This document shows, piece after piece, positions 23,532 through 60,651 of a stretch of DNA of 64,000 nt. Each line of letters opens with the position of its first letter. Positions within the stretch are counted from its first letter, which is position 1. The stretch lies in the IMG/VR virus record IMGVR_UViG_3300006484_001465, positions 1 through 64,000 of that record; one strand, 5' to 3'. The translations under genes and the position numbers were made by a program. The notes beneath the pieces were generated by a model. The model saw only the letters and a list, made by a program, of their open reading frames with translations, had not been told where the DNA came from and ran no database searches. The stretch comes from a virus.

Positions 23532-23547
23532 ACTAAACGTATATATT

Positions 23548-40795: not shown

Positions 40796-40806
40796 AAATA
40801 ATTAAT

Positions 40807-40837: not shown

Positions 40838-40854
40838 AAAAAAATAGAATCATT

Positions 40855-40870
40855 AATATTTATAATAAAA
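40855..40870 (+). promoter_or_regulatory. phage late-type promoter motif before tail tube
   Basis: AATATTTATAATAAAA is an exact core match 48 bases before the start at 40903. Confidence 0.6.
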
Positions 40871-40902
40871 GATAACAAAAAGAATTAAAAAAATAAAAGA
40901 AC

Positions 40903-41391
40903 ATGGCTGATTTATTGATGAAAATGCCCGTACCTTATGAGCCTAAAAAGAAGAATAGATGGCTTTTAAGATTTCCAGCTGATTTAGGTATACAAGAATG
41001 GTGGTTAGCGTCTGCCTCAAGACCTTCTATAACACAAAATGAGGTTGAAATACCTTTCCTAAACACATCTACTTGGGTAATCGGTAGATTTACATGGGAA
41101 TCTATAAGTGTGACGTTTAGAGACCCTATTGGGCCATCTGCTGCTCAAGCTATTATGGAATGGGTTCGTTTACAATCTGAATCTATTACAGGTAGACAGG
41201 GTTATGCTGCTGGTTACAAAAAAGATATTGAATTAGAGATGTTGGACCCAACTGGAGTTGTTATTGAAAAATGGCAATTGCAAGGTACAATGTTGACGAA
41301 TGTTAACTTTGGTGACTTATCGATGGATGATGATGGTATCGCAGATATCACAGCTGACATGAGATTTGACAGAGCTATACTTTTGTTCTAG
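40903..41391 (+). CDS. tail tube protein (T4 gp19-like)
   Basis: 162 residues, the same size as T4 gp19 (163). It has the typical order of tube proteins: a strand KKNRWLLRFPADLGIQEWWL, residues SASRPSITQNEVEIPFLNTS, then the conserved WESISVTFRDPIGPSAAQAI strand-helix, and a final beta segment LQGTMLTNVNFGDLSMDDDG ending ADMRFDRAILLF. It forms the hexameric rings of the inner tube through which DNA passes. It lies directly after the sheath gene as in T4, between its own late-type promoter and a strong terminator, as expected for an abundant structural protein. Confidence 0.93.
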   Translation: MADLLMKMPVPYEPKKKNRWLLRFPADLGIQEWWLASASRPSITQNEVEIPFLNTSTWVIGRFTWESISVTFRDPIGPSAAQAIMEWVRLQSESITGRQGYAAGYKKDIELEMLDPTGVVIEKWQLQGTMLTNVNFGDLSMDDDGIADITADMRFDRAILLF

Positions 41392-41433
41392 CAGAATTAC
41401 TTTATCAAAAAGAATTAATTAAAAATATCAATT

Positions 41434-41460
41434 AAACCTATAAGTAATTATAGGTTTTTT
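41434..41460 (+). terminator. intrinsic terminator after tail tube
   Basis: AAACCTATAA, loop GTAA, TTATAGGTTT and a T-run. Confidence 0.85.
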
Positions 41461-41472
41461 TGTTTTTTATTA

Positions 41473-41488
41473 GATATTTATAATAAAA
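41473..41488 (+). promoter_or_regulatory. phage late-type promoter motif
   Basis: GATATTTATAATAAAA is an exact consensus 21 bases before the start at 41494. Confidence 0.6.
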
Positions 41489-41493
41489 TTCAA

Positions 41494-42354
41494 ATGAGAA
41501 AAAGTGATAAAAAACATAATATGTCTAAAGTTAATTTATTAGCCGAACAAAGATATTTGGAATCAAAAGGTATAATAACTGAATCATTTCATAAACCAGA
41601 TGGTACACCTATTGGTGTTGACAGTATGCACAGACCAGTAAATGAAGACCCAATTGGTGTTAATAATGAATTAATGGTGATTAAAAGACAAATTGAAGAT
41701 TTAAAACCAAATTTTACAATTAATTTTGATGCTTTGAAAGTTATAGGTTTAGATTTGGAGATAACTTATGATTTAAATAGTAAACTTTATAAAGTTAGAA
41801 ATAGTATTACTGGTAAATATTATGTTAATAACATATTACATACTCAATGTGTTGATTGTGAATTTAGAACTCCTGATGAAGTTATTAAATTTATTAGACG
41901 TAAAGCTGAAGGTGGTGCTGTTAAATTAATGCCTCAACAAAATGAAGGTGTTGAAGAAGGTGATTTGGGTGCATATAGAAGTAATTTACAAAATACTGGT
42001 AACTATCCATGGACAACTTATTTAGGTAATAAAGAAAAAGGTGAATCTGACAAAAAACAAAATATTAAAGATAAGGAAGGGTTCGAAAATGAATTTAAAA
42101 AAAGTTACGCTGGGCAAACAATTGAAACAACTAACGGATTATATACCTTTTTTGATATAAAATATAAAAATAATTATGGTAATTATGATTTGATATTTAC
42201 AAAACCTAAAGGTGAAAATGATTGGAGTGGTGCTAATCTTTTTATAACATATGACCAAACACTGGGTTATTATATTGATGAGTATAAAGGTATCAAATTA
42301 ACTGATGCTGACTCAGAAGAAAAAGTAATAGAAATGCTAAGTTATAATAAATAA
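41494..42354 (+). CDS. unknown virion-region protein with a putative capsid-targeting leader
   Basis: 286 residues from the first ATG; an in-frame ATG at 41521 (residue 10) would give the start MSKVNLLAEQRYLESKG. The leader ends IITE-S at about residue 31. The same pattern, (R)(F/Y)LxSKG(I/L)ITE, opens the otherwise unrelated protein at 43848. T4 internal head proteins carry N-terminal peptides cut by the prohead protease after I/L-x-E, so this may be a capsid-targeting peptide. The rest shows a central beta-rich domain (FDALKVIGLDLEITYDLNSK, with VRNSITGKYYVNN), a linker rich in Lys/Glu at about residues 165-205, and a C-terminal mixed domain. No enzyme motif is visible. It is a single-gene transcript with its own promoter and terminator. 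Confidence 0.6.
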   Translation: MRKSDKKHNMSKVNLLAEQRYLESKGIITESFHKPDGTPIGVDSMHRPVNEDPIGVNNELMVIKRQIEDLKPNFTINFDALKVIGLDLEITYDLNSKLYKVRNSITGKYYVNNILHTQCVDCEFRTPDEVIKFIRRKAEGGAVKLMPQQNEGVEEGDLGAYRSNLQNTGNYPWTTYLGNKEKGESDKKQNIKDKEGFENEFKKSYAGQTIETTNGLYTFFDIKYKNNYGNYDLIFTKPKGENDWSGANLFITYDQTLGYYIDEYKGIKLTDADSEEKVIEMLSYNK

Positions 42355-42357
42355 CAT

Positions 42358-42384
42358 AAAACCACTTTTAAAAGTGGTTTTTTT
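42358..42384 (+). terminator. intrinsic terminator
   Basis: AAAACCACTTT, loop TA, AAAGTGGTTTT followed by Ts, directly after the stop at 42354. Confidence 0.85.
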
Positions 42385-42416
42385 ATTTTATGTTATTTAC
42401 AAAAAAACTTATTATG

Positions 42417-42430
42417 GTATATTTATTTTT
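42417..42430 (+). promoter_or_regulatory. late-type promoter motif, variant
   Basis: GTATATTTATTTTT lies 51 bases before the start at 42468. It has the core with a T-rich second half. Confidence 0.4.
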
Positions 42431-42467
42431 GAGTTATAAAAATAATATTAATAAATAAGTTTTAATT

Positions 42468-43535
42468 ATGGAAAACAGACCAAAAGTCTTCCCAACGGCA
42501 GACCAAATTGCCGCAGCAAATCAAACTGGGGTGCAAATCGCAAAAGAGCAAGAAGAAACAATAATGAATAATCAGGTGTCTTCTGGTGAAATAGAGGCGG
42601 CAACTGAAATGGCTAGAAGAACAGCTGAACAATTACGATTAAGAGAGGAATCCTTAAAATCATCAAATCAAGATGTTGCTCAAGAAGTATTAAACCCAAG
42701 AGTTGAAGTACAACAACACACAATGAAAAGTCCAATGGAAAATTTAAAACCACAAATCAACACTAATAGAGATATTGAAATAGCTCAAATTAGTCAACCA
42801 CAAATGAATCAACCTTATGATATCATTCCATTACCAAGTGAAGGTAAGTTATATAGAAATAAAAAAGGTAAAATTAAAGTTTCATTCTTAACTGCGGCTG
42901 ATGAAAATATTTTAACATCACCAAACTTACTTGAGAGTGGTGATTTCTTAGAAATATTATTAAATAGAAAAATATTAGAACCAGAATTAAGATATAATGA
43001 TTTGATACCTGGTGATAGAGATGCTATTATGGTTTGGCTTAGAGCTACTGGTTATGGTGAAATGTATCCAGTTACAATTTTAGATGAAAATGATAAACCA
43101 TTTGAAACTGAAGTTGATTTAACTAAACTTAAAGTTAAACATTTATCAGTTGAGCCAGATGGTGAGGGGTTGTTTACATTTACATTACCTTTATCAAAAT
43201 CAACTGTTAAATTTAAATTATTGACAGTTGGTGAAATTAGTGAGCTTGAAAAGTTAGCATTATTTTTAAAAGAAGAAAATAATTTAATTAATACTGAATC
43301 AACATTATTACTTGAGTCTCAGGTTGTTGAAATTGATGGAAATAGAGATAAAAACTATATTTCTGAATTTATTGATACAATGAGAATCATGGATAGTAAA
43401 AAATTAAAAACCTATATGTCAGAATTAGATTGTGGTATTGATATGAACATTACGTTCGGGACCCCTGGGGGAGGGTCCGTTACTAGGTTTCTTCCCTTTA
43501 CGGTCAAGTTTTTTTGGCCTGACTTTAACATATAA
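42468..43535 (+). CDS. baseplate hub protein (T4 gp26-like)
   Basis: 355 residues. Residues 1-120 are polar, Gln-rich and probably disordered. From YDIIPLPSEGKLYRNKKGKI the family pattern begins: VSFLTAADENILTSPNLLESG, LLNRKILEPELRYNDLIPGDRDAIMVWLRATGYG, YPVTILDENDKPFETEVDLTKL, LPLSKSTVKFKLLTVGEI, then a C-terminal SELDCGIDMNITFGTPGGG and FLPFTVKFFWPDFNI. The GDR-AIM-WLR-TGYG block and the FFWPD ending are what I associate with gp26-type proteins of the T4 baseplate hub. The final codons overlap an open +1 frame that continues into the small protein at 43606, raising the possibility of frameshifting at a run of seven Ts. Confidence 0.7.
   Translation: MENRPKVFPTADQIAAANQTGVQIAKEQEETIMNNQVSSGEIEAATEMARRTAEQLRLREESLKSSNQDVAQEVLNPRVEVQQHTMKSPMENLKPQINTNRDIEIAQISQPQMNQPYDIIPLPSEGKLYRNKKGKIKVSFLTAADENILTSPNLLESGDFLEILLNRKILEPELRYNDLIPGDRDAIMVWLRATGYGEMYPVTILDENDKPFETEVDLTKLKVKHLSVEPDGEGLFTFTLPLSKSTVKFKLLTVGEISELEKLALFLKEENNLINTESTLLLESQVVEIDGNRDKNYISEFIDTMRIMDSKKLKTYMSELDCGIDMNITFGTPGGGSVTRFLPFTVKFFWPDFNI
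43459..43478 (+). promoter_or_regulatory. GC-rich hairpin inside the gp26-like gene
   Basis: GGACCC, loop CTGGGGGA, GGGTCC, the most GC-rich spot in this part of the AT-rich genome. It lies about 30 bases before a T7 run. It may stall ribosomes or simply encode the local Gly/Pro turn. Confidence 0.4.
43509..43517 (+). other. candidate slippery sequence (T7GG)
   Basis: TTTTTTTGG. In the gp26-like frame it reads TTT TTT TGG. A +1 slip yields TTT TTT GGC and joins an open frame that runs without stop to 43791. It could also be a homopolymer artefact. Confidence 0.4.
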
Positions 43536-45256: not shown

Positions 45257-47857
45257 ATGGCAAAATACGAATTTGATAAGAAAAAATTTGAGGAGTGGAA
45301 ACAAGCTCAAAAGGAATCTGCTGAACTTCAGGAAAAGATGAACAGTAACCTTAATGGTTATATGGAAGGTGTTAAAAAATTAACTGAACTACAAAAAAAC
45401 TTACAATTTATTGAGCAAAAAGTCGCTCAATTAAAAAAAGAACAACTTAAAGCTGAAAATGATTTATTAGAAAATACTAAAAAACTTAATAAAGCAACAG
45501 CAGACGGTGATGCTAATGAAATAAAAGCACTTAAAGAAAAGGAAAAAGAATTAAAAAAAATAATTGCAGCTAAAAAAGAAGGTGTAGATATAACTGAAAA
45601 AGAATTAGGTTTACTTAAGCAACAAACAGCTGAGTTAACTGAACAAGTAAAACAAACTAGTTTAATAAGCGCTGGATTAGGTTCAGCAGTTGGTTTTTTA
45701 GGTAAAGTACCAGGTTTAATCACTAAAGGTTTCGGTATGCTTAAGGGTACTGGAATCTTTGAAATGGACAAAGCTATATTAAATGCTAATAAAAGCATGG
45801 CTGGTTCTGAAAAAACATTTAACAATCTTTATAATACTATTAAAGATTCTGCTAAAACAACCACAATGTGGGGTGTTGGTGTTAAGGATTTGGCTGTTAT
45901 GCAACAAGGTTATAGTGAAGCTATTGGAAAGTCGGTGATGTTGACTGAAGATGGTTATAAGGCTATGGCTGGTATGGCTGAAGGTACTGGGTTAGGTAAG
46001 GAATTTGCTGTTGGTATGGCTGCTGAAATGGATAAATTTAACATTTCAGCTGAAAGGTCTGGCTCAATAGTTGAGATGACTATGAATAAAGCTGCTAAAC
46101 TTGGTGTAAATGGTGCCGCTGCATTAAAGTCATTACAAAACAATTTAAAATTAGCACAAAGATTTAATTTTAAAGGTGGTATTGCTGGTTTAGCTAAGTT
46201 ATCAGTTGAAGCTACTAGATTAAAATTAGATATGCAAGGTATTGCTGGTATGGCTGAAAAAGTATTTAGACCAGAAGGTGCAATAGAAATGGCCGCTCAA
46301 TTAACAACAATGGGTGGTGAATTTGCTAAACTAGGTGACCCGATGACATTACTATTTAAAAGTAGAAATGATATGGCTGGATTTTCTAAAGATGTTGGTA
46401 AAGCTTCTGCTGAATTTATTGAATTTAATAAAGAGACTGGTGAATTTAATATTAAAGCTGGTTTGGCTGCTGATAGAATGCGTGAGATATCAACAATAAC
46501 TGGTATAGCTGTTGAGGAGTTAAAAGAAATGGGTTCGGCTCAACTTAAAATTGTGGAAGTTGGTAAAAATCTTAAATCTGGTATTTTTGGTGAAGAAGAT
46601 ACTCAACTAATAAGTTCATTTGCTAAATTTAAAGATGGTAAATGGAAAATAGAAGCTGGTAGCTTTAGTAAAGATTTAAAAGATTTAAATAAAAATGATA
46701 TTGCAAGGATTAAAGCTGAGGATAAAACATTACAGGAAAGAGCTGAATTTGGTAGGTCTTTTGATGAAACTATACAAGACTTAATTTTAATGGTAAAAGA
46801 AATGTTATTACCATTAGCTAAATCTTTAAGAGAAAATTTTGGTGAAAGAGTTAAAGAATTAGCTAAATGGTTTAATAGTTCAGAATTTAGAGATATGGTC
46901 GAAGGTGTTATTAAGGGTGTTGGTGATTTTATAAAATATATTAGTGATTTTATGAAAAATAATCCAATAACAGCGGCAGTTACTGCTGGTGCGGCAATAT
47001 TTGGTGGTTCTATTTTAAAATATCTTGGCGAGTCAGCAATGTGGTTGTTGAATGGTAAATTATTAGGTATGGGATTCAATTCAGTAGCTAGTGGTGGAGG
47101 TGGTGGCGGTGGTTCTATGCTTGATATGTTGGATATGGGTGACGGAAAAGGAAAGGGTAAATCAGGTAAAATGGGTAGATTTGGTAAAATTGGTAAATTT
47201 TTAAAAGGTCCTGGTGGTGCTGGTCTTCTTGCTGGTGGTTTTGCTGCTTATGATGAATATAGTGAAAATGCTGCTACGGGTATGAGTGGTGGTGAAAATG
47301 CTGGTAGAACTGTATCGAAAGGTGGTGGCGCAATGGGTGGTGCTGCTGCTGGTGCTGCAATGGGTGCTATTGGTGGCCCTGTTGGTGTTTTACTTGGTGG
47401 TATAATTGGTGGTATTGCTGGTAGTGCATTAGGTGAAGAAATTGGTGATGCAATATGGGGCAATGAAAATGCAACCGCAGTTTCAGCTGGTAGAGGTAAA
47501 AATAAAGCTGGTGATTTCAAAAGTGTTGGTATGCAAGATGGTATTATGTTTCACCCGCAAGATAAATTCTTAAAAGTAAATGATGCTATTACAATTGCTG
47601 GAACTCAAGCTGGTGGTAATGCTAAATTAGCTGAAAAAATGGGTAATGGGGGTTCATCAAATGAAACAACACATAAATTTAATGATTTAAATATTAAAAT
47701 ATCAGTTGATGCACCTAGTGATTCTAAATTTTGGGAAAGTATCGTAAATCAACCAGATATAATGAAAAAAATAACTCAAGGTGTTCATATAAGTAGTGAA
47801 GAAGCATCAAGTGGTGGCAAAGTTACTGGTAGTGGACCTAAACGAAGAGGTAAATAA
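45257..47857 (+). CDS. tail tape measure protein
   Basis: 866 residues. Residues 1-140 are a long coiled coil rich in Lys, Glu and Gln. Residues about 140-520 are helical with many Ala, Gly and Met, including GMAEGTGLGKEFAVGMAAEM. A hydrophobic stretch NNPITAAVTAGAAIFGGSIL lies at about residues 570-590, and a Gly/Ala-rich segment (GGAMGGAAAGAAMGAIGGPV, then LLGGIIGGIAGSALG) at about 695-740. Helical rod plus hydrophobic Gly-rich segments near the C-terminal end is the signature of tape measure proteins, which set tail length and enter the envelope during injection. Position after tube and hub genes and before the baseplate genes supports this. Confidence 0.85.
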   Translation: MAKYEFDKKKFEEWKQAQKESAELQEKMNSNLNGYMEGVKKLTELQKNLQFIEQKVAQLKKEQLKAENDLLENTKKLNKATADGDANEIKALKEKEKELKKIIAAKKEGVDITEKELGLLKQQTAELTEQVKQTSLISAGLGSAVGFLGKVPGLITKGFGMLKGTGIFEMDKAILNANKSMAGSEKTFNNLYNTIKDSAKTTTMWGVGVKDLAVMQQGYSEAIGKSVMLTEDGYKAMAGMAEGTGLGKEFAVGMAAEMDKFNISAERSGSIVEMTMNKAAKLGVNGAAALKSLQNNLKLAQRFNFKGGIAGLAKLSVEATRLKLDMQGIAGMAEKVFRPEGAIEMAAQLTTMGGEFAKLGDPMTLLFKSRNDMAGFSKDVGKASAEFIEFNKETGEFNIKAGLAADRMREISTITGIAVEELKEMGSAQLKIVEVGKNLKSGIFGEEDTQLISSFAKFKDGKWKIEAGSFSKDLKDLNKNDIARIKAEDKTLQERAEFGRSFDETIQDLILMVKEMLLPLAKSLRENFGERVKELAKWFNSSEFRDMVEGVIKGVGDFIKYISDFMKNNPITAAVTAGAAIFGGSILKYLGESAMWLLNGKLLGMGFNSVASGGGGGGGSMLDMLDMGDGKGKGKSGKMGRFGKIGKFLKGPGGAGLLAGGFAAYDEYSENAATGMSGGENAGRTVSKGGGAMGGAAAGAAMGAIGGPVGVLLGGIIGGIAGSALGEEIGDAIWGNENATAVSAGRGKNKAGDFKSVGMQDGIMFHPQDKFLKVNDAITIAGTQAGGNAKLAEKMGNGGSSNETTHKFNDLNIKISVDAPSDSKFWESIVNQPDIMKKITQGVHISSEEASSGGKVTGSGPKRRGK

Positions 47858-48107: not shown

Positions 48108-51100
48108 ATGCCAAATTCAATAAATTCACTATCACCTTCCTTTAGGGATTATTTATTACTTAAGAATTTAGTAACAGATACTGTAATTGATAATGGTTTA
48201 CAATCATTATTAGGTGGTATTGGTTATCCAGTTGAAGTAGAAACGTTACCAATTGCGGTTCAACCGTCAAATAGTATTGATAATACTGGTACTATATATC
48301 AAGAATTAAATACTATATTAAATACTTTTCAAGGTACTACTGATGATTACTCTCAAACTAATATTATATTAAATCAATCAACAAATAGTGTAATAGGTAA
48401 TCAAGGTCTTTATTCAAATTCAAATGAATTATTAAATGGTCAATTTTTAGCTAATGGTAATTTAACTAATAGTTCTGATGTTAGAGAAGGTATGACATCT
48501 AAAAATATATATGTTGATGTACCTAAACAATCAGTTATTGATTTAAATACACAACCAGTACCAACTTTTCAAAATCTTAAATCATATATTGATGAGAATA
48601 ATAATTTAAATATAGGTGGACCTAGTACACAAGCTGCCGATATAATCGGTGGTGTTGTAGGTGGTCAAGGAGTTGGTTTTAATTCAACAGGTGGTTTGGT
48701 TGCTAATGAAGATATTAGGTCAACTTTACTAGGTAGAGTATTAGGTGCTACTGGAACTATAAATGATACACCTTTAGGTAATATAGGTGGTCAACAATTA
48801 TTAGCACATGTTGGTTATAATGCAGCATTTGGTTTACAACAAGAAACATTAGGTAGTTTAAATTTAAATCCATTATCATTACTTCAAGGTAAAAGTTTAG
48901 TTAATTTAAATTATAGTATTACAGTACCTAAAGGTACCGTTGGTAGAATCCTTAACTTTGCAGCAAATATACTTGGTGTTCAATCACCAAAAAGTTTATT
49001 AGAAGAATCTTCAAGTATTTATTCATTTAGTAATAAATTAGATTATATTGGTCAACCAAATATTAAACGAGCAAATGAAATGCTTAAAAATTCTGGTGTG
49101 GGTCAAGTTCAAACTTTAATTAATCATATGAGAGCTAATATGATTATCTCTAATCCAAATGGAACAACATTAAGACAGGGATATGCGGCTGGATACGAAG
49201 ATGATAGAATTAAAAAGGGTGATAATACTGGTGATGGTGTAAATTATAATTTATATGCAAGAGGTGATGGTGATGGTGGTATTATAGATTTCTTAAACGG
49301 AAAGGAAAATAGCCCAATATCATCAGGTAACTATGATAGACCTGGACAAATTATAGGTGATGGTTGGGCTGAAGACTATAGAGGTTTTTATGCTAGTTAT
49401 GATTTACCAGTTTCAGAGTCTGATGCTGAATTAAATAGAGCTGGAACAACAATTAAAAAATATAAAGATGCTTTTGGTTGGACTGATGAGTATAACAACA
49501 CACCAGATAGTGTTAAAGATTTCAATCAAGAAACATTATTCAACAATAAAAAAACACTTTTATATAAAACAAGAAAATTATTTGAAACAAATAGAATGCA
49601 AACACTTGTAACAGGTCATGGTGTTAAAGATGATTCTGAATCTCAAATACAAACTGCCGTATCTAGTGTTGGTCGTTTTGTTTCAAAAGGTAGTGGTGTA
49701 TTATCATATAATGCTTTAATTAAAGGTGTTAACGATGACCCAGCCAAAGTATTTTGTAGAACATGGACAACATACGATAGATATGATGATGTTTTAGATT
49801 TACAAAAGAATAGAGGGTTATATGGTTCAAATCGTAATATATTTAGAAAAAATGTTGAATTATCAGTTTTAGAAGATAATGGTTTTGCTAGAATAGCACC
49901 ATATAAGACTGATGATATGTCAAAAAAATATACTGACAATAAAAGATATATGTTCTCAATTGAGAATTTAGCCTGGAATGATAATTTACCTAATTTATTA
50001 GCATGTGAAATTGGTCCTGGTGACCAATTAAGTGGTCATAAAGGTAGAATAATGTGGTTCCCACCATATGATATTAGCTTCAGTGAATCAACATCAGCAA
50101 GTTGGGATAAACATAATTTTATAGGTAGAGGGGAACCGATGTATACTTATAATAATACTGAAAGAACTGGTAATTTAAGTTGGAAAATAATTATTGACCA
50201 TCCGAATTACCTTAATTTTATTGGTGGTGCTGAAGGTATAAACCCTACAAATTTTGATGATTATGTTGCATCATTTTTTGCTGGTTGTATTCCATTGGAA
50301 GAAGCAAAACAAATTCTTACAAAAAATGAGAGTGATAAAACTGAAACTGCAAATGCTCAAACAAAACCAGAAGAAACATTACTTGAACAATTAGCGCCAC
50401 CATCATTTAATGTTTATTTTCCAAATGATGTTTTTGAAATTGATAAATATCCAAAATATGAAGATGGTGTGTGTGATGTTGATAATGCATTAGAAACATT
50501 AAAAGGTCATACTGATAGTGTTCATTATGCTGAATTTAGTCCAGATGGAACTAAAGTAGTTACAGCATCATATGATAATACAGCTAGAATATGGGATGCA
50601 ACATCTGGTGATACTATATATATATTAGCTGGACATACTAATTCTCTCATTACTGCTAAATTTAGTTCAGATGGTACTAAAGTGGTAACAGCATCATATG
50701 ATGATACCGCTAGAATATGGGATGTATCAAATGGTAGTTCATTATTTACATTAGGACACACTAATTCTGTTAGTTATGCTGAATTCAGCCCAGATGGAAC
50801 TAAAGTGGTAACAGCATCATATGATGATACCGCTAAAATATGGAACGCAATCAATGGTACTCTAATATTTAATTTAAGTGGACATACTAATACCGTTTAC
50901 GATGCTAAATTTAATCCAAATGGAACTAAAATTATAACTTCATCAAATGATACTACAGCTAGAATATGGGATGTAGCATCTGGTACTTTAATACATATCT
51001 TAAGTGGCCATACTGATGGAATACTAAGTTCTGAATTCAGCCCAGATGGAACTAAAGTAGTTACCGCATCATATGAAGGTACAGCTAAAATATGGGATAC

Positions 51101-53450
51101 AGCAACTGGTGCTTTAATATTTAATTTAAGTGGCCACACTCAGTTTCTTAATGCTGCTAGATTTAGTCCAGACGGAACTAAAATTGTAACTGCCGCCACA
51201 TCCCCAGATAACACATCTAAAATATGGAATGTATCAAACGGTGGTTTATTATTTACATTAGACGAACATACTGATGCGATTAATGACGCTAACTTTAGTC
51301 CAGATGGAACTAAAATTGTAACTGCATCATCTGATAATACAGGTAAAATATGGGATGTATCAAATGGTGCTTTATTATCAACATTAGCTGGACATACTGA
51401 TTGGGTTTTAACAGCTGAATTCAGCCCAGATAATACTAAAATTGTAACTGCATCATTTGATGATACCGCTAAAATATGGGATGCAACAAAAAATTATGGT
51501 GTTTGTAGAATTGATTATAGTAAAAATATTACGGGTAAAGGTGAAGGTATAGATAGATATAACGAATCATGCTATCAATTTTTAGTTGAGGGTAAAAAAA
51601 CATGGTCATCAGTCCAATGCGGAGACACACCTAATGTTTACCAGGGTACTGACGGTAGAGATGAACCAGATAGAACTGATTTTGGTTTAAATGGTACGGG
51701 GACAACAGTTGATTATACTGGAACTAGACTTGCTGATAAAAAATATTTAGGTTGGAGAGACCCACAATATAAAATTGATTTACAAAATTATTTACTTACA
51801 AAATGTAAAAATTGTAAAGTAGTAGTTGAAGGTTTTGCTAGTGTTGTTGGTACTTTTGGTGATAATAGAAATGATAAATTATCAGAACTTAGGGCAAATA
51901 GTGTTAAAGATTGGTTATTAACAAATATATTAACAGACCCACCATTTTCAGAAAGAGTAACAGTTGCAGCAGTAGTTGGTGGTGCAACTAATAAAGGTGG
52001 TGATGGTACTAGTTCATGTCCAGAATCACCAGCATCAAGAAAAAGAAATTATTTAAAATCTGTAAATGATGTTTATGGTTGTAAGATTAATAGATACGTT
52101 ACGGTTAAATTTGTTATTGACCCTAATTTAAATACTGAAGATAAACCAAAAACAGAAAAGGAAACAGTACCACCACCTAAAGTTTTATTACCTAAAATAA
52201 GTCCATCTAGATTTTATACAGAATGTGATTATTTTCAGAAATTAGAACTTTCAGACCCAACGGTATATGATACTTTAAAAACTAAAATTAAATTTTTCCA
52301 ACCAGCGTTTCACTCAACAACGCCAGAAGGTTTTAATTCTAGATTAACATTCTTACAACAATGTATGAGACAAGGGCCAACTCAAGGTGCTGGTACTACA
52401 AATAACCCAAGTAATTTAGCATTTGGTAGACCACCAGTATGTATATTAAGAATTGGTGATTTTTACCATACTAAGATTATAATTGAAAATTTAAATTTCA
52501 CATTTGACCCATTGGTTTGGGATTTAAACCCAGAGGGTGTTGGTGTACAACCAATGATTTGTAATGTAGATATGTCATTTGCATTTATTGGTGGTTCAAG
52601 TCTTACTGGACCAATTAATAAATTACAAAATGCTGTATCATTTAATTACTTTGCAAATACTGAAGTATATGACCCAAGAGCTGATACTATTGTAGTTAAA
52701 GATGACAAGGGAAGTATTGTTAATGGTGAAGATAGTATTTCTGCTTTCAAAAATAATTTAACAGAAGCGCAGATGAGTCCAAATATAACACCAACTGCGA
52801 ATCAACTTGCTCAAAATAATAATGCAAATGCTGGTAATCAACCATTAACTAGCTTAACAGCTACTACTGCAACAACGGTTCCAGTACCACCAACAGCACC
52901 ACCAGTACCAACTGACCCAGACCAAGCGGTATTTAGTAATGCTGAGTTTACTAATACTTATGCATTTAATATTAATTATGATGGTGATAAATTAAAAGGT
53001 AGATTTGGGGTTGTTAATGGTTTATCTAAAGACTATCAAGCTAAACTTAGGTTATTTAGTTCAACGGGTGGTAATATTGATATTGCAACATTTACAATAA
53101 ACTCTAGTTCACACCCTGACTTACCAAATATGGGTGAATTTATTAGTGAAAAAGGTGGTTGGAAATCAGCTTTAGGTGAATTAGCTGATGTAAAAAATGG
53201 TGGTGTTTTATTTATTGTTTCAGTTTTGGCATATCCAGATTATAAATATTATAAATCTAAAGCGATTGCACAATTTGATTGTCCAGAGGAAGATATTAAA
53301 TATGCGGATATGTTAGATTATGAGGAGTGGGGTTATATCTTAAAAGACCCTTGTTGTAATTGTTGGCCAAATGGAACTGGTAAAAGTACTATTTCAGTTT
53401 ATAACGATAAAGGTGTACTTGTGAATTGTCCAATCTCTGGTTGTACATAA
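48108..53450 (+). CDS. giant baseplate protein with WD40 propeller and OmpA-like domain
   Basis: 1780 residues. Residues 1-790 are phage structural sequence, including MFSIENLAWNDNLPNLLACE, FPPYDISFSESTSASWDKHN and a TGNLSWKIIIDHP strand like those of large baseplate proteins. Residues about 796-1130 are eight consecutive WD40 repeats (GHTDSVHYAEFSPDGTKVVT then ASYDDTAKIWD). Residues about 1222-1345 match an OmpA/MotB C-terminal domain (VVVEGFASVVGTFGDNRNDKLS, in which the Asp of the usual GHTD is missing, then LRANSVKDWL), a fold that binds peptidoglycan. Residues about 1400-1600 return to phage structural sequence (RPPVCILRIGDFYHTKIIIE), and a Cys-rich tail ends the chain. WD40 and OmpA look inserted into one ancestral baseplate protein. 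First gene of the baseplate operon. Confidence 0.8.
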   Translation: MPNSINSLSPSFRDYLLLKNLVTDTVIDNGLQSLLGGIGYPVEVETLPIAVQPSNSIDNTGTIYQELNTILNTFQGTTDDYSQTNIILNQSTNSVIGNQGLYSNSNELLNGQFLANGNLTNSSDVREGMTSKNIYVDVPKQSVIDLNTQPVPTFQNLKSYIDENNNLNIGGPSTQAADIIGGVVGGQGVGFNSTGGLVANEDIRSTLLGRVLGATGTINDTPLGNIGGQQLLAHVGYNAAFGLQQETLGSLNLNPLSLLQGKSLVNLNYSITVPKGTVGRILNFAANILGVQSPKSLLEESSSIYSFSNKLDYIGQPNIKRANEMLKNSGVGQVQTLINHMRANMIISNPNGTTLRQGYAAGYEDDRIKKGDNTGDGVNYNLYARGDGDGGIIDFLNGKENSPISSGNYDRPGQIIGDGWAEDYRGFYASYDLPVSESDAELNRAGTTIKKYKDAFGWTDEYNNTPDSVKDFNQETLFNNKKTLLYKTRKLFETNRMQTLVTGHGVKDDSESQIQTAVSSVGRFVSKGSGVLSYNALIKGVNDDPAKVFCRTWTTYDRYDDVLDLQKNRGLYGSNRNIFRKNVELSVLEDNGFARIAPYKTDDMSKKYTDNKRYMFSIENLAWNDNLPNLLACEIGPGDQLSGHKGRIMWFPPYDISFSESTSASWDKHNFIGRGEPMYTYNNTERTGNLSWKIIIDHPNYLNFIGGAEGINPTNFDDYVASFFAGCIPLEEAKQILTKNESDKTETANAQTKPEETLLEQLAPPSFNVYFPNDVFEIDKYPKYEDGVCDVDNALETLKGHTDSVHYAEFSPDGTKVVTASYDNTARIWDATSGDTIYILAGHTNSLITAKFSSDGTKVVTASYDDTARIWDVSNGSSLFTLGHTNSVSYAEFSPDGTKVVTASYDDTAKIWNAINGTLIFNLSGHTNTVYDAKFNPNGTKIITSSNDTTARIWDVASGTLIHILSGHTDGILSSEFSPDGTKVVTASYEGTAKIWDTATGALIFNLSGHTQFLNAARFSPDGTKIVTAATSPDNTSKIWNVSNGGLLFTLDEHTDAINDANFSPDGTKIVTASSDNTGKIWDVSNGALLSTLAGHTDWVLTAEFSPDNTKIVTASFDDTAKIWDATKNYGVCRIDYSKNITGKGEGIDRYNESCYQFLVEGKKTWSSVQCGDTPNVYQGTDGRDEPDRTDFGLNGTGTTVDYTGTRLADKKYLGWRDPQYKIDLQNYLLTKCKNCKVVVEGFASVVGTFGDNRNDKLSELRANSVKDWLLTNILTDPPFSERVTVAAVVGGATNKGGDGTSSCPESPASRKRNYLKSVNDVYGCKINRYVTVKFVIDPNLNTEDKPKTEKETVPPPKVLLPKISPSRFYTECDYFQKLELSDPTVYDTLKTKIKFFQPAFHSTTPEGFNSRLTFLQQCMRQGPTQGAGTTNNPSNLAFGRPPVCILRIGDFYHTKIIIENLNFTFDPLVWDLNPEGVGVQPMICNVDMSFAFIGGSSLTGPINKLQNAVSFNYFANTEVYDPRADTIVVKDDKGSIVNGEDSISAFKNNLTEAQMSPNITPTANQLAQNNNANAGNQPLTSLTATTATTVPVPPTAPPVPTDPDQAVFSNAEFTNTYAFNINYDGDKLKGRFGVVNGLSKDYQAKLRLFSSTGGNIDIATFTINSSSHPDLPNMGEFISEKGGWKSALGELADVKNGGVLFIVSVLAYPDYKYYKSKAIAQFDCPEEDIKYADMLDYEEWGYILKDPCCNCWPNGTGKSTISVYNDKGVLVNCPISGCT
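50496..51494 (+). repeat. eight WD40-coding tandem repeats of about 126 bp
   Basis: Units share long near-identical DNA blocks such as CCAGATGGAACTAAAGTGGT and GATACCGCTAAAATATGGGA. Similarity at DNA level is higher than expected for an old domain. Confidence 0.85.
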
Positions 53451-53470: not shown

Positions 53471-53788
53471 ATGGCAAGTTATTTCGATAGATACGAAAAG
53501 TTTAGATATGAAGGTAAGATATTACCCATACCATATATCAGGATACCAGTAGAAGCTACTGATAAAAATATTATTTATAAATTAAGTAGAACTAGACTTG
53601 ACAAAGTCAGTCAAACTTATTATAATAACCCATATCATGGTTTTTTAATTATGTTAGCAAATCCACAATATGGTGGTTTGGAATTTAATATAAAAGATGG
53701 TGATGTAATAAGAGTACCTTATCCTTTTGATTCTGCACTTGAAAGATATATAGGGCAAGTAAATAGATACAAACAACTTTATGGTTAA
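53471..53788 (+). CDS. LysM-containing baseplate protein (T4 gp53-like)
   Basis: 105 residues. The C-terminal part, NPYHGFLIMLANPQYGGLEF followed by NIKDGDVIRVPYP, is a LysM-type ending (a helix, then a strand with D-G-D-x-I-x-V-P). T4 gp53, a baseplate wedge protein, contains a LysM-like domain after a short N-terminal part, and the size and position between two giant baseplate genes suit that role. It starts 20 bases after the WD40 protein and 11 bases before the hub gene, so all three are co-transcribed. The LysM fold here probably serves protein contacts. Confidence 0.6.
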   Translation: MASYFDRYEKFRYEGKILPIPYIRIPVEATDKNIIYKLSRTRLDKVSQTYYNNPYHGFLIMLANPQYGGLEFNIKDGDVIRVPYPFDSALERYIGQVNRYKQLYG

Positions 53789-53799
53789 TTTAAAATAAT

Positions 53800-56700
53800 A
53801 TGGATAAATCTAGTGTTTCACAAAATAGAATATTGTGGTTAGACCCTAATAAGGCTAACAATGTAATGGTTAACCCAGAAGATTTATGTATTAAAGTTGA
53901 ATTTAGTACTAAGCGAAAAGGTAGAAGTATAATTTATTCAGGTGCCGAAACTATCAATACCGTTGATAGTAATGCAAATGTTACATTTATTGAGGGGTCA
54001 AAAGTTGATAATGGTTTATTACCAGCTTTAACAACCAGATATACTGATGCGATTGCTTTAGATGTAATGAACGCATCAGAACAACAAACTGATGATTTTG
54101 AAAGTTTAGGTATTGAAAGTATTGATATTGAATTTGACACTGCAAATACACCATTAATTAAAATAAAATTTATAGATGTAAGAGGTAATGCAATACTATC
54201 ACAAGGTAGTATGTCTAAATATAGAATGTTTTTTGAATTACCATACCCAATCTTTAGTTTAAAAGTTAAAGGTTTTTATGGTGGCACTGTAAACTATTGT
54301 TTGCATATGCAAAGATGGAACGCATCATTTAATTCAGAAACTGGTAACTTTGAAATACAAGCCGATTTTATGGGATTTACTTATGCCTTATTAACGGATT
54401 TATTAATTGGGTTAATTAGAGCGGCAGTTAGAACAAAAAAAGGACAAGCTAAATTAATTTTAAAACAAGATGAATATGGTGAAAACTCAAATTTAATCAT
54501 AACAATAGATGAGATGTTAACTAAATTTGTTGAATTAGCTAACACCACACAAAAAATATCACAAGAAGATAATTCAGCTGCACAGCTACAAGGGCATGAT
54601 GAAATAGCTGCTGATTTAGAGTCTATAAGAGTTGCCTTTGATACATTTAGCGCTGCAATATATGATGGTGTTAACCCAGTTAATACTTATTTTAAATCAC
54701 CAGATGGTGTAGTTTTATGTGTACCAAATGGTGCTGACTCTGATAAAAAATATGAAACCGCACTTAAAGCTTATGAAGAAACAATTACAGGATTAGTTAA
54801 TGCGGTAAATAATAAGATTTCAGATGATACTTTGAAGTTAAATGAAAACTTATTGAAAGATGTTGTTAAAATATCCGATATTACTAAAGCACAATTAACT
54901 AGTGCTGATAATATTAATGAAATTATTAACCATTCTGGTGGTAAATACACGAGTGATGAAACTAACAAAGATTATGTTAAAGAGTTATTGAAAGTGATTG
55001 GTAATTTAGGAACATCAGTAGCCACTGATGATACTAAACTTAATATTTATAATTTAAAAAGAATACAATACCATTTTAATGATATAAAAACAAAACTTGC
55101 TGAAAATAAAACAAAAACTGAAACAGACTTTAACGCTAAATTAGCAGATACTGCTGAAGGTATTATTGGTTTTGAACCAACAATTAGAAATATATTTAGA
55201 GTTTTATCAGTAAATGCTGAAATATTTTTAGAGGTATTAAAAGATGTATCAGTAGAAGCACAAAGTGACGCTAGTGGTAAACGAGCAGTTGAATTTAATA
55301 AAATATCTGGTCTTTTAAATGTTAATCAAGCTGATGTAGTTAATGTTGAAAAGAAAACAATATATCCTTGGCCAGAATATAGACAAGAAAAAGCTGGTGA
55401 AGGTTATGTTGAAACCTGGCTAGGAAAAGCGCCCGTTATAGCAACAAATATAAATGAAGTTGTTTTCGTTAAAGAGTTACACACTGAGTTATTAAACGTT
55501 GCAAAATTTGATAAAGATTTACAAGAGCAAATTGATAATCCAGATGCTGGTGCAGATGTTGATACAAATGCGATAGCACCAGCAGATGCTTGGTTTCCGT
55601 TAACACCAGCTGACACACCAATTAATCCATTAATGACACAAAATCCATACATTGAAGCAACAGATGCTAATAATGCTGACGAAGTAAAAAGATTAGTATT
55701 ACTTAGGACTTTTATGTTATTAGGTGTTAGTACATTCAATAGTAAGATTGAATCATCAAAAGGCGGTGCATTATTAAAAACAATGGGTGGGCTAGAAGCT
55801 GAAACTTTAGTCGCTGCTTGTAGAAAGTTAGGTAAACATGGTCAAGATTTATTAGCAACAATGTTGGAGGAAGTTAAAGATGAGGATGAAGAAAAACGAA
55901 TTACTGCCTTTATAAATAAAATTACAGAATTTGGTGCAGAAGGCTCATCTAAAATAACCAACCCAGGCGCTGTTAGTAAAAAACCAATACTGATTAAAAC
56001 TACGGTTGGTGTTGATAATGTTGTGCAGACAATTCCAGGAGACCAGCTTAAATCTCACTATTATAAATACGTATATATTAGAGATGATGATGCAAAAGCC
56101 GCTTATATACCAGTAAACACAGGATTTGACGGTTCTGGATTTTATAATAATGATAATACATTTAAATCAAGAGATGATTTAAAAGAGTTATCTAGTAGTA
56201 TAATATTTGTTAGTAACCCTAAAAATTATGAAGGTACAGATAATGTAGATACATTCAAAGATGAAGATGATGGTTCACTACATGTTAAGTTATACGAATT
56301 AAGCGAGTATACAGCATCATCGATGATTCCAGAATTTGGGAAAGAACTTGTTGATTTTCATAAAGGAAACTTAGATGAAGCAAATTCAGTACCTCGTGTT
56401 GATTCGGTATATAGAAGTATTGTTAATAATCAAGATACTAAATCAAATGATTCTGATGAAATTATTGATGGTTTAAACCCATATAATGGTAATTATTCAG
56501 TTTTAGAGATGAACACTTTAAATTATGATGCAACGGAAGCAGATTTTGCTGATGAATTTAATTATTATATGGGTGAGCCAATGTGGAAAAACGATACTAA
56601 AGTAGATTCATCATTAATAGGTTTTTATACAGAATTTAATAATTTTAAATTTAATGGTGATAGAGATAATGTTAACTTACCAGTTGTTGGTACTTACTTA

Positions 56701-59700
56701 TCATACCCAATTGATAAGAAATTATATGACGATGCAATATTATACGCTGGTGATGGTGAATTTAGTGATAATATATATTTTATGCCTGAATTAGAAAGAA
56801 CACAAATCAACACTAATTCTAAAATTTTCAGAAAAACATGGGCAGATAACGGTGCCTATTTAAAACAAAAGGGGTTATTAAGTTTAGGGATAAAGGGGAA
56901 TAAACTTTATTTACCATTTATAGAATTTGGTATTTCTAACGCAGACGTGCGAACATCTGGTTCAAATAATACAGGTAATTTATCAGTATCACTATTTGGT
57001 AGTTATTTTTATTATAGACAACCATTAGATGAAGTTAGAGCACTTTTATTCTTACACACAATTCCATGGCAAGGTGTTAAAAATTTCGGGGCTGATATTC
57101 AAGAAATGATGATGTTAGATAAATATCTTGACTGGACATCATGGCAACGCCTTAAGGAAGAAGAAACTAAAGGTAACTATACAAGAGTTAGTAGTATTAG
57201 AACATTATTTCAAGTTAATGGAGCATTTGTTCACGCACCAAAAGCGTGGGTATTATTTGTTGGTGCTATGCTTTGGAGAGTAAGATATACAGCAACACAC
57301 AATAATACCGACCCTATAGTATATTCTGGTAGGGAAGGTAAAAAATACACACTAATACCAGCAAACGTAAGAACGCCACTATCAAAAGAATATTTATATT
57401 TATCAGCACCATATGGTGATGCTTATGCTGAACATAACCCATGGGGTATGTTTTTTGGTGATGCCCCTGATGGGTATGCAGTAACAAGGGATTTGGAATA
57501 TGGAATAAGAGGTGCTGCTACAGCATATGAAACATATGTACCACTAGATTTAACATTAATGAATTTACCAAAACAAGTTAGAGATGAATTTATTTCTTAT
57601 TTTGAAGAATGGGTTAAGGATGATACTGGATTTAAATTTATACAAAAAGAGTTAGAATTATATAAATCAAAAAGTAATTATGACGATTGGTTTACTAAAA
57701 ATCAAGAAGTTAGAAATTTAGCAAAAGCACCAAATTCAAATCAAACGGGGTTACAAAAACGAATATCAAGAACTGAATTAAATAAATTATTTACTGAATC
57801 AGTTGTTAATAATTATGCATTGATTGCTGGTGTAAAAGATATTGTTAATGACGGTGCATCAACGGTTGGTAATTTAAATACAATATTTAAACCTAACACA
57901 CCAGTCATGAACTATATGGTATCTTTACTTACACAACCAACAGTAATACAAAATGTTAATCCAAATATTTGGAACTATGATTATTATGATAAAGCTGCTG
58001 GTTATGTTGGTGGTAATAAATTTAAAAAACAAGCATCAGAGGCTGGGTATCAAAATGGTACATCATCTAAAAGCATTAGAGTTAGAGCTGATAAATTTAG
58101 AATATATTTATCTGGTTTTTATAGTAAATTAATAACATTAAATGAAGCATATCAAAAAGAAGTAATACCAGACCCAGAAGATGAAGCGCAACAAGAAATA
58201 TTTGGAACTGGTGATGATGATACTATAAACTTGATGATATATAGAATATTATCATCGATTAATGACAAATGGTTAAATGGTTCAGAAAATAAAAGTGCAT
58301 TTTCACAATGTGGTGAAACAACTAAAAATGAAATAGATTTAAAACATGCCAAAAAATTTAGAGCATCAGCAACGGAAGCGTCTTTAATTGATACATTTAG
58401 ATTTGTTGATAGGGCCTTTGCTGATATTGGTGATAAATTTTATTTAAATATAAATTCAGTTACAGATTTGATTAGAGCAAATTATAATCAAAGTTATTTT
58501 GATATAATTAATAAAATTTTATCTGATAATAATTTTAACTTTATACCACTACCAACCTTCGTTAACTTTAACAATATAGATGAATTAAAAACGGTGTTTA
58601 CTGCATACACATATAATAACCCAGTTACATTTAAAGGTACGGGTCCAGCGTTTGTTTGTGTATATGTTGGACAAGCCTCAACAAACTTAGATTTGGGTAC
58701 TGGCTCTGTTTATCCAGATGATGGACTATCGATATCAATGGATAGTGATACTGGAACCATAGAATTACCAGTAGAAGCTAGTGATTTAAATTCACCAATA
58801 GAAGCTGATAGTTTAGATGGTAATGTACCAGTATTTGCGGTTAACTATGGACAACAAAATCAGAATTACTTTAGAAGTATTAAATTAGACCAAAGAGAGT
58901 TTACCGAAACAATGGAATCACTCCAAGTTATTGAAAGTATATCACAAACTGGTGATAAAAGTAAACCAACGTATGCTGGTAATAATTTATTTAATGTTTA
59001 TCAAACTAGGTCATATAGTGCTGAAGTGGAAATGTTAGGTTCAGCAATGATTCAACCAATGATGTATTTCCAATTAAATAATATACCAATGTTTAGAGGT
59101 GCTTATTTAATTTACAAGGTAACACACTCTATCAAACCGCATTCAATGACAACAACCTTTAAAGGTAATAGAGTTAAAAAAGCTAAAACGCCATTAATGG
59201 ACAAAGCAACAATGCTTATGAATTTGATTGGAACAACAGGTTCTGGAGCACTAATTGGTTCTGATAGAGGTGTATCCGCTGGTTATTATTCAGCTATAAT
59301 AGCAACATTAATTGAAAATGGTGTAACTAATGGTTTTATGGAACTTGGTAAACCAATTGGTCAAATAACCAATAAAAAAGTTGATTTAAGTGGTACTAAA
59401 TTTAAAAATAGTGCTGGAGATATCGGATTCATGGTTACTGAAGCGGCAGATGCATTTAGAAAAATGGTACAAGAATTAAGTAAATGGGTTGAGGGTGAAG
59501 TTAAAGCTGGTCGTTTTAAAGAAAAAGAAACATATGGAAAAGCTGGTTCGTTTTATAGAACTTACGCAAAACAAGTTGAATTGGCAAAAGGTCAAAAAAC
59601 AGCAGCAGCAGCTGGAACATCACTTCATGGATGGGGCCTTGCTGTAGATTGGAATTGGGTTAGTCCAGACGGTGTCATGTTTACAAGGCTTTATAAAGAA

Positions 59701-60651
59701 GGTAGTAGGCCAAGTGAGTTTGATTTTAATACAGACCCAATAGTAGGATGGTTATTTAATAATTCATATAGATTTGGATTTTTAAATCCAGGCTGGGCCC
59801 ATGATAAGGGTAGTTATGATGAAGTATGGCACTGGGAATATCATGGGACACAAGCAAAATGTATAGTCGCAAAAAGTAAAACTATATTTGGACAAGCATA
59901 TGATACTAGCAAACCATTAGACTCAATAGTTAAAAATCCAAAAACACCAGACGGTAAAGAAGCTGTATACCCAACAAATAGTTGTGATGATAAATACATT
60001 AAAGCTAGAGATGGTAATAGTTTAGTTGGTGCAAGTAGAGAAGATATGAAAGTAGATAAGTTAACACCATTCAGTGCAGAGTTAAAAAGTATAATTACTA
60101 ATGGTAATTATGCTGGTGTAGCCATTAGCGATTATAAAAATGATTGGTTAGCGGTAACTAGTAATTATATTGCTAAAAAAGAAACGTTTACAGCAACACC
60201 TGGTAATGATGAAGGTACATTAAGAGCTGGATACGGTACTGATAAAATATTACAGAATGGTTCATTAGTAAAAGTAACATCTAGTACTGTATTTACGAAA
60301 GAAGTTGCTAAAAATACATTAGTTTATCAAATTAAAAATACATACGGTAAACAAATCGAAAAAGATTTGGGTAGTGCTAATTGGAATAAGTTAAATAAAT
60401 ATCAAAAGGCAGCATTAGTTAGTTTAGGTTATAACGCTGGTGCTTATTATATTTCAGCTAGAGAATATGGTGAACAAATAAAAAATGCTATTGAAAAAAA
60501 TGATTTTAAAGAGGCTGCTCAAGGTATATTAAACGGACCAATAAGTGGTGCACAATCAGGTGTATTAAGTGGTTTGATTAAAAGAAGAATAGAAGAGGCT
60601 CAATTATTTTTAGTAGATAAAAATGCAAGTTTAAAGTATATATCCGAATAA
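53800..60651 (+). CDS. giant baseplate hub with M15 peptidase and GH24-like lysozyme domains
   Basis: 2283 residues. Residues 1-210 contain a hub-type beta domain (SIDIEFDTANTPLIKIKFID, then SLKVKGFYGGTVNYCLHMQRW). The middle 1500 residues are unrecognised structural sequence ending with a hub-like strand HSIKPHSMTTTFKGNRV. Residues about 1900-2030 are an M15/VanY-type peptidase: H1943 and D1950 in SLHGWGLAVDWN, and E2008 with H2011 in EVWHWEYHG, supply zinc ligands and catalytic Glu. Residues about 2095-2275 are a T4-lysozyme-like GH24 domain: E2128 in IAKKETFTATPGNDEG, then LRAGYGTD, YQKAALVSLGYNAG and RRIEEAQLF. The protein would therefore cut both peptide and glycan bonds of peptidoglycan on penetration, replacing T4 gp5 and probably gp27. 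Confidence 0.8.
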   Translation: MDKSSVSQNRILWLDPNKANNVMVNPEDLCIKVEFSTKRKGRSIIYSGAETINTVDSNANVTFIEGSKVDNGLLPALTTRYTDAIALDVMNASEQQTDDFESLGIESIDIEFDTANTPLIKIKFIDVRGNAILSQGSMSKYRMFFELPYPIFSLKVKGFYGGTVNYCLHMQRWNASFNSETGNFEIQADFMGFTYALLTDLLIGLIRAAVRTKKGQAKLILKQDEYGENSNLIITIDEMLTKFVELANTTQKISQEDNSAAQLQGHDEIAADLESIRVAFDTFSAAIYDGVNPVNTYFKSPDGVVLCVPNGADSDKKYETALKAYEETITGLVNAVNNKISDDTLKLNENLLKDVVKISDITKAQLTSADNINEIINHSGGKYTSDETNKDYVKELLKVIGNLGTSVATDDTKLNIYNLKRIQYHFNDIKTKLAENKTKTETDFNAKLADTAEGIIGFEPTIRNIFRVLSVNAEIFLEVLKDVSVEAQSDASGKRAVEFNKISGLLNVNQADVVNVEKKTIYPWPEYRQEKAGEGYVETWLGKAPVIATNINEVVFVKELHTELLNVAKFDKDLQEQIDNPDAGADVDTNAIAPADAWFPLTPADTPINPLMTQNPYIEATDANNADEVKRLVLLRTFMLLGVSTFNSKIESSKGGALLKTMGGLEAETLVAACRKLGKHGQDLLATMLEEVKDEDEEKRITAFINKITEFGAEGSSKITNPGAVSKKPILIKTTVGVDNVVQTIPGDQLKSHYYKYVYIRDDDAKAAYIPVNTGFDGSGFYNNDNTFKSRDDLKELSSSIIFVSNPKNYEGTDNVDTFKDEDDGSLHVKLYELSEYTASSMIPEFGKELVDFHKGNLDEANSVPRVDSVYRSIVNNQDTKSNDSDEIIDGLNPYNGNYSVLEMNTLNYDATEADFADEFNYYMGEPMWKNDTKVDSSLIGFYTEFNNFKFNGDRDNVNLPVVGTYLSYPIDKKLYDDAILYAGDGEFSDNIYFMPELERTQINTNSKIFRKTWADNGAYLKQKGLLSLGIKGNKLYLPFIEFGISNADVRTSGSNNTGNLSVSLFGSYFYYRQPLDEVRALLFLHTIPWQGVKNFGADIQEMMMLDKYLDWTSWQRLKEEETKGNYTRVSSIRTLFQVNGAFVHAPKAWVLFVGAMLWRVRYTATHNNTDPIVYSGREGKKYTLIPANVRTPLSKEYLYLSAPYGDAYAEHNPWGMFFGDAPDGYAVTRDLEYGIRGAATAYETYVPLDLTLMNLPKQVRDEFISYFEEWVKDDTGFKFIQKELELYKSKSNYDDWFTKNQEVRNLAKAPNSNQTGLQKRISRTELNKLFTESVVNNYALIAGVKDIVNDGASTVGNLNTIFKPNTPVMNYMVSLLTQPTVIQNVNPNIWNYDYYDKAAGYVGGNKFKKQASEAGYQNGTSSKSIRVRADKFRIYLSGFYSKLITLNEAYQKEVIPDPEDEAQQEIFGTGDDDTINLMIYRILSSINDKWLNGSENKSAFSQCGETTKNEIDLKHAKKFRASATEASLIDTFRFVDRAFADIGDKFYLNINSVTDLIRANYNQSYFDIINKILSDNNFNFIPLPTFVNFNNIDELKTVFTAYTYNNPVTFKGTGPAFVCVYVGQASTNLDLGTGSVYPDDGLSISMDSDTGTIELPVEASDLNSPIEADSLDGNVPVFAVNYGQQNQNYFRSIKLDQREFTETMESLQVIESISQTGDKSKPTYAGNNLFNVYQTRSYSAEVEMLGSAMIQPMMYFQLNNIPMFRGAYLIYKVTHSIKPHSMTTTFKGNRVKKAKTPLMDKATMLMNLIGTTGSGALIGSDRGVSAGYYSAIIATLIENGVTNGFMELGKPIGQITNKKVDLSGTKFKNSAGDIGFMVTEAADAFRKMVQELSKWVEGEVKAGRFKEKETYGKAGSFYRTYAKQVELAKGQKTAAAAGTSLHGWGLAVDWNWVSPDGVMFTRLYKEGSRPSEFDFNTDPIVGWLFNNSYRFGFLNPGWAHDKGSYDEVWHWEYHGTQAKCIVAKSKTIFGQAYDTSKPLDSIVKNPKTPDGKEAVYPTNSCDDKYIKARDGNSLVGASREDMKVDKLTPFSAELKSIITNGNYAGVAISDYKNDWLAVTSNYIAKKETFTATPGNDEGTLRAGYGTDKILQNGSLVKVTSSTVFTKEVAKNTLVYQIKNTYGKQIEKDLGSANWNKLNKYQKAALVSLGYNAGAYYISAREYGEQIKNAIEKNDFKEAAQGILNGPISGAQSGVLSGLIKRRIEEAQLFLVDKNASLKYISE

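Follow-up and report, generated by a model that had tools for sequence, protein, structure and literature searches.

A WD40 propeller nested in the OmpA-like domain of a contractile-tail baseplate-region protein, with a rapidly changing predicted binding face

The window analysed here, the first 64,000 nucleotides of the 109,443-base IMG/VR virus record IMGVR_UViG_3300006484_001465 from an uncultured contractile-tailed phage, carries among its tail genes a single uninterrupted open reading frame of 1780 codons (Table 1). Its product is a structural protein of the contractile-tail baseplate region, and a WD40 propeller, predicted to be closed and eight-bladed, is nested within an OmpA-like domain in the middle of this protein. 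Comparison with relatives shows that the OmpA-like domain is ancestral and family-wide and that the propeller is a rare addition, whose predicted binding face is evolving far more rapidly than the remainder of the protein. With moderate confidence, we favour a model whereby the nested propeller of one clade is an exchangeable, fast-diversifying protein-binding head on a conserved baseplate-region protein, and whereby its partner is most likely a variable host envelope or surface protein.

Table 1. The 1780-aa protein, its parts and its tail-gene surroundings (positions in the window)
Feature	Positions	Strand	Basis
Whole 1780-aa protein: baseplate region, nested OmpA-like domain and WD40 propeller	48108..53450	+	ORF, profile searches, homologues
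N-terminal body, residues 1-766	48108..50405	+	Invariant alignment columns; without Pfam match
OmpA-like first strand FNVYFPND and linker YEDG, residues 767-788	50406..50471	+	Motif in most relatives; strand in both AlphaFold models
Inserted WD40 propeller, residues 789-1133	50472..51506	+	Pfam, DNA repeats, AlphaFold, Foldseek; missing from most relatives
OmpA-like remainder, residues 1134-1345	51507..52142	+	PF00691; solved OmpA/Pal homologues by profile and fold
C-terminal body, residues 1346-1590	52143..52877	+	Family alignments; 234/235 identical to L002
Variable C-terminal tail, residues 1591-1780	52878..53450	+	96% to L002, 23% to L009
Tape-measure protein, directly upstream	45257..47857	+	PHROG tail length tape measure, E 2e-11
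Small ORF, 105 aa, between the 1780-aa protein gene and the hub gene	53471..53788	+	No Pfam match
2283-aa hub-like protein with VanY peptidase and phage lysozyme domains	53800..60651	+	Pfam
Contractile-tail genes: sheath 37961, tube 40903, T4-type baseplate protein 42468	37961..43535	+	PF17482/PF04984, PF06841, PF12322

Gene order and place in the tail

The assignment to the baseplate region is based on gene order, because the gene lies between those of a tape-measure protein and a hub-like protein. This order holds across the family: a tape-measure homologue adjoins upstream in 117 of the 118 family loci with enough flank, and in 146 of 150 loci a hub homologue follows downstream at no more than 2.5 kb; these counts are partly non-independent, since some contigs are represented twice. 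The Pfam matches of the contractile-tail genes are weak, with the sheath exceeding the PF17482 cut-off. In T4, the counterpart position holds tube-cap proteins, and the 1780-aa protein is most likely of this tube-cap/initiator type, an assignment based on gene order together with weak viral fold matches, to the N-terminal domain of a contractile injection system (CIS) tube protein and to a tail tube cap. The protein thus resembles the T4 gp48/gp54 tube cap and the CIS tube-initiator in its position after the tape measure and in these weak fold matches; however, it is far larger, carries an OmpA-like domain mid-protein and has no detected sequence similarity to them.

A PHROGs search with the body returned weak matches only, all labelled unknown function or 'membrane protein', and Pfam gave no match in residues 1-766, where a conserved block (RIMWFPPYD...FIGRGEP...YTYNNTER) includes long predicted strands. 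The C-terminal body, with the motifs HPAFHSTTPEGFNSRLTF...ILRIGDFYHT...WDLNPEG, is the most conserved part of the protein. In a low-confidence whole-protein AlphaFold model of the insert-free relative L047 (pLDDT 54), only the OmpA part matches solved structures. A relationship of the body to the tail-tube protein by sequence was considered and rejected, as profile comparison of the two gave nothing significant.

The hub-like protein combines a VanY-type peptidase (residues 1916-2016) with a phage lysozyme (2128-2266), and thereby two wall-cutting enzymes in one tail protein. The tail tube protein (40903-41391) is 83-100% conserved in its 80 best relatives, whereas the baseplate protein of the same phages diverges to 40-60%. 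YadA-head repeats (PF05658, 1.5e-23 and 6e-6), which are typical of trimeric adhesins, were observed in two probable tail or fibre proteins, at 36081-37610 and 7535-11431. In addition, an ORF at 21801 contains collagen-like repeats (Pfam collagen, 2e-31), and the 1657-aa protein that follows it at 23548 (region 21801-28521) matches tail-fibre families.

A propeller within an OmpA-like domain

The first-pass annotation had reported eight WD40 repeats, and these were confirmed: residues 795-1128 (50490-51491) match PF00400 with an E value of 5.8e-72, all eight repeats individually score above the Pfam cut-off (30-43 bits against 27), a genomic profile search returns eight separate WD40 matches in the gene, and the DNA of the region shows tandem repeats of ~126 bp. 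AlphaFold, given residues 620-1640 with 55 relatives, predicts a closed eight-bladed propeller at a pLDDT of 95-98, consistent with the propeller that the annotation had supposed; the best Foldseek fits are the eight-bladed Tako8 design and the eight-bladed ODA16 (TM 0.95-0.96 on the target, rmsd 1.2-1.4 A). Cys789 and Cys1133 lie at the two ends of the insert. The cysteine after YEDG is present in six of the six insert-bearing proteins where the position is visible and in 1 of 29 others, and because it is nearly confined to insert-bearing proteins, the flanking cysteines may form a clasp at the propeller neck.

An OmpA-type domain had also been proposed, and it is present, being marginal for the window sequence alone and solid for the family. 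The window protein scores 25.1 bits against PF00691 (E 6.4e-5), just under the curated cut-off of 27.2, whereas a match at E <= 1 is obtained for 42 of 55 relatives, the best E value being 2.4e-9, and L016 reaches 33.8 bits; the family profile matches solved OmpA/Pal structures at E 2e-5, and the L047 model fits OmpA, Pal, MotB and TagL domains. The fold starts at ~767 with FNVYFPND, is broken by the propeller (789-1133) and continues over ~1134-1345, where the motifs CxxC, GFAS, NxxLSxxRA and CK..R are found. Nearly all relatives have an FNVYFPND-type strand, then YE.G, a linker of variable length, a helix, G[YF]AS and NxxLSxxRA; the strand motif [YF]F.N[DN] is conserved in most of them, and the first OmpA strand is a strand in both AlphaFold models. 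Because propeller-free relatives keep this strand, which in the compact relative L063 lies 49 residues ahead of GYAS, near the usual spacing in OmpA domains, the propeller sits inside the OmpA-like domain, after its first strand (YFPND), and the OmpA-like domain itself sits between two conserved parts of the body. The WD40 and OmpA-like parts had been described as lying together between structural halves of a baseplate protein; their embedding in a protein of the tail or baseplate region holds, but they are not two neighbouring inserts, since one is nested in the other. The proposal that the two form a joint docking module is not supported, given that the OmpA-like domain is ancestral and the propeller nested and lineage-specific.

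In canonical OmpA domains, the aspartate of the GHTD segment contacts diaminopimelate, as established for Acinetobacter OmpA. The window protein reads GFAS at this segment, a deviation that had been noted from the single sequence and is real, but that is not peculiar to it: the pocket-Asp position is Ser in 49 of the 55 relatives, Thr in 2, a gap in 4 and Asp in none. Of the ligand-pocket pair expected for peptidoglycan binding, Asp (GHTD) and Arg (LSxxRA), the family keeps the arginine alone (Arg1262, in 54/55), and Asn1255 is kept in 50/55. With the canonical Asp missing throughout the family, even though Arg and Asn persist, the earlier suggestion that this domain binds peptidoglycan is doubtful as judged from the alignment. 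Compared with OmpA/Pal/MotB domains (PF00691), the family thus has the fold and NxxLSxxRA with its Arg and Asn in common, but differs in the Ser for the pocket Asp, in four extra conserved cysteines and in a long loop after strand 1, which in the window protein houses the propeller. These cysteines (1233, 1236, 1304 and 1325), which are kept in 35-40 of the 55 relatives and are unusual for OmpA domains, possibly form disulfides or a metal site.

Distribution and divergence of the propeller

The protein belongs to a large, mostly unannotated family of tail proteins with an OmpA-like domain: each of two scans gave more than 580 confirmed relatives, and over 500 candidate stretches of IMG/VR contain homologues. 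A scan of genome contigs gave five loci only, all distant (Bacteroidales/Paludibacteraceae, Mycoplasmatota and Prochlorococcus assemblies). The query's only match among deposited phage genomes is gp99 of the 440-kb Salicola phage SCTP-2 (L256:4495-9702), a 1735-aa hypothetical protein with C-terminal WD40/PQQ-type propeller repeats.

Among 125 distinct full-span relatives, WD40 blades occur in three intact proteins (the window protein, L002 and L009) and in the split pair L004/L084, and the addition of fragments added no further bearer; as the loci behind these relatives had been selected by their resemblance to the window protein, the true frequency of the WD40 insert is probably lower. L004 and L084 have an identical blade segment in common and seem to be the two parts of a single gene that was split within identical repeats. 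Metagenome contigs end inside or just before the WD40 repeats (at the end of L004, the start of L084 and the end of L003), and because they stop there, short-read data probably understate how often such propellers occur. An assembly chimera was rejected, as the same fusion occurs in the independent contigs L002, L009 and L004 with L084; a separate host-like WD40 gene was rejected too, no other WD40 sequence having been found in the 109-kb record.

Relatives lacking the insert are the majority. In a tree of the body, all propeller bearers fall within one supported clade, and the nearest relatives of the window protein beyond its own 96% group, L005 and L006, are without the propeller and retain the same tail gene order. 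At least one loss, regain or swap of the module has taken place. The same loop also accepts other sequences: in L007 and L008, an insert of another kind (~400 aa) occupies exactly this site after YEDGKC, likewise flanked by cysteines and non-WD40 by cut-off. This insert is probably propeller-like; it has few weak matches, mostly to propellers, and no internal repeat period was found in that of L008. Shorter unrelated inserts (56-176 aa) occupy the loop in L165, L154 and L148. Elsewhere in the protein, insertions near the end of the OmpA-like domain were observed in L146 and L151, and a C-terminal extension of ~800 aa in L051 and L074; Pfam gave no match for the L154 insert or for these C-terminal extensions.

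Divergence between the window protein and L002 is strongly localized. The two are 89% identical overall, with 96% in the N-terminal body and 100% in the C-terminal body (234/235); the OmpA remainder is 79% and the propeller 68% identical. The dN/dS ratio is 0.60 for the propeller and 0.73 for the OmpA remainder, compared with 0.02-0.24 for most of the flanks, and dS is 0.40, 0.18 and, for most flanks, 0.07-0.17, respectively. The raised dS of the propeller suggests that, besides selection, repeats or alleles have been exchanged. Blade number varies too, with eight in the window protein and L002 and seven in L009; the blades are near-identical units with a period of 40-44 aa, and the closest matches of the window blades, as to grouping by genome or by position, are mixed, coming from its own blades, L002 and L004.

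Within the blades, the change is concentrated at a few positions. In 25 cleanly aligned blades from four genes, with positions counted from the conserved Phe, changes in the framework codons are almost wholly synonymous, and positions -6, -4, +12 and +14 rank 1, 2, 5 and 8 of 37 in variability (P 4e-4). At these four face positions, 22 of 30 residues differ between the window protein and L002, compared with 71 of 260 at the other blade positions (Fisher p 1.1e-6), the basis being this one close pair together with the blades of the four genes. In the WD40 repeats of fungal HET-D/HET-E, codons 7, 9, 25 and 27 are positively selected interface codons (PMC1805685). The phage pairs -6/-4 and +12/+14 are similarly 18 residues apart and flank a conserved hydrophobic residue and a conserved Asp, and because spacing and flanking residues are the same, we infer that the two sets of positions are equivalent.

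Possible roles and comparison with known systems

A protein-binding role for the propeller, one of the options offered by the first-pass annotation, fits these data. In the model that we favour, the body of the protein would build the baseplate core, and the OmpA-like domain, displayed family-wide from the middle of the protein, would be a carrier projecting from that body. In one small clade, a complete WD40 propeller, inserted in the loop after OmpA-like strand 1, would project in turn from the OmpA-like domain and, exposed on the virion, act as an exchangeable protein-binding head, in which the framework stays fixed, the residues of the ligand face diversify, and blades or the whole propeller may be gained, lost or swapped. 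The ligand would be a variable host envelope or surface protein, contacted in adsorption or penetration; this is the most likely candidate, since change is seen at the face and not in the rest of the baseplate protein, and since close relatives that lack a propeller build the same tail. If this model is correct, a contractile-tail phage puts a fast-evolving recognition propeller on a conserved baseplate-core protein and not on a fibre, and the hypervariable positions of its blades are those that serve self/non-self recognition in fungi. What counts against a host-recognition head is that adhesins are usually found on fibres, not on core proteins. A more specific version, which we regard as tentative and on balance somewhat doubtful, is that a self-diversifying propeller of recombining near-identical blades serves as an exchangeable host-recognition domain on the baseplate core by means of its OmpA-like carrier, with a repertoire like that of fungal allorecognition receptors but used by the attacker. 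Close relatives with the propeller, without it and with another insert at one site make a role of such modules in host recognition directly testable.

The partner of the propeller could also belong to the phage itself, such as a co-varying fibre. We consider it rather unlikely that the propeller is an assembly or attachment platform that docks a tail fibre or accessory protein and whose face co-evolves with that phage partner. In favour of this reading, WD40 propellers generally serve as platforms for binding proteins, some products of the window's genes resemble fibres, having collagen and YadA-head repeats, and have to be attached somewhere, and the propeller-free L005 and L006 could use another fibre set; however, the unchanged tail gene order of these near relatives indicates that the propeller is dispensable for assembly, and a variable ligand face on a 96-100% conserved baseplate protein resembles an arms race and not a fixed joint. 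A role in envelope docking, whereby the OmpA-like domain would grip peptidoglycan or a periplasmic protein and the propeller would add affinity for a periplasmic protein while the VanY/lysozyme hub digests the wall, places the gripping after the breach of the outer membrane, with the tip held in place. We judge this to be unlikely: although the fold is OmpA-like by sequence and structure, Arg1262 and Asn1255 are retained, and the next large gene, which stays adjacent, encodes two peptidoglycan enzymes, the diaminopimelate-contacting Asp is Ser or Thr in the aligned relatives (apart from the four gaps), and the fast change of the OmpA remainder (dN/dS 0.73, window against L002) is unexpected for a domain that grips invariant peptidoglycan.

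The dN/dS of the propeller region as a whole is below 1. Its fast change could also reflect relaxed constraint or repeat exchange, dS being raised there too. Taken to its end, the propeller would be a recently captured, weakly constrained decoration, a selfish or neutral insertion at a tolerant loop without a specific ligand. Its rarity and lineage-specific presence, the acceptance of other inserts by the same loop and the raised dS agree with such an origin, which is nevertheless very improbable in our view, because the framework codons are strongly purified, with variation confined to the face positions, and reading frame and propeller closure are maintained.

The first-pass annotation had regarded WD40 propellers as unfamiliar in contractile-tail baseplates; propellers are, however, known from contractile tails. 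WD40 folds have been predicted for receptor-binding proteins of diffocins and of contractile C. difficile phages such as phiMMP03 and CDKM15 (PMC13324602), and phiKZ gp131C is cited in PMC4901313 as a seven-bladed propeller at the baseplate periphery. The C. difficile proteins share with the window protein the presence of WD40 propellers in contractile-tail particles, and theirs are proposed to bind host S-layer protein; by their description they are separate large receptor-binding or fibre proteins (PMC13324602), whereas the propeller described here is nested in the OmpA-like domain of a baseplate-core-region protein beside the tape measure. The five-bladed propeller of the phi11 receptor-binding protein Gp45 and, as mentioned in the same source, PRD1 P2 are further propellers of phage adsorption organelles (PMC4901313). 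As far as the account in that source extends, phiKZ gp131C and phi11 Gp45 have a beta-propeller in the adsorption organelle and a proposed receptor role in common with our model, but they are not described there as WD40 and are presented outside any OmpA fold and without tandem near-identical blades. In the literature covered, which was incomplete, we found neither a WD40 propeller nested in the OmpA-like domain of a core baseplate protein, nor allorecognition-like blade variation in a phage tail, nor OmpA-like peptidoglycan-binding baseplate proteins of phages. The fungal HNWD proteins HET-D/HET-E (PMC1805685) have in common with the phage propeller WD40 units of ~42 aa that are alike in DNA, variation in blade number and hypervariability at the corresponding four blade positions; they differ in being intracellular NLRs, in that site-wise positive selection has been formally shown and in their concerted evolution across a gene family, and we do not suggest homology beyond the WD40 fold. 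Thus, propellers in phage receptor-binding proteins are known, and it is the nested location and the diversification signature that appear to be new.
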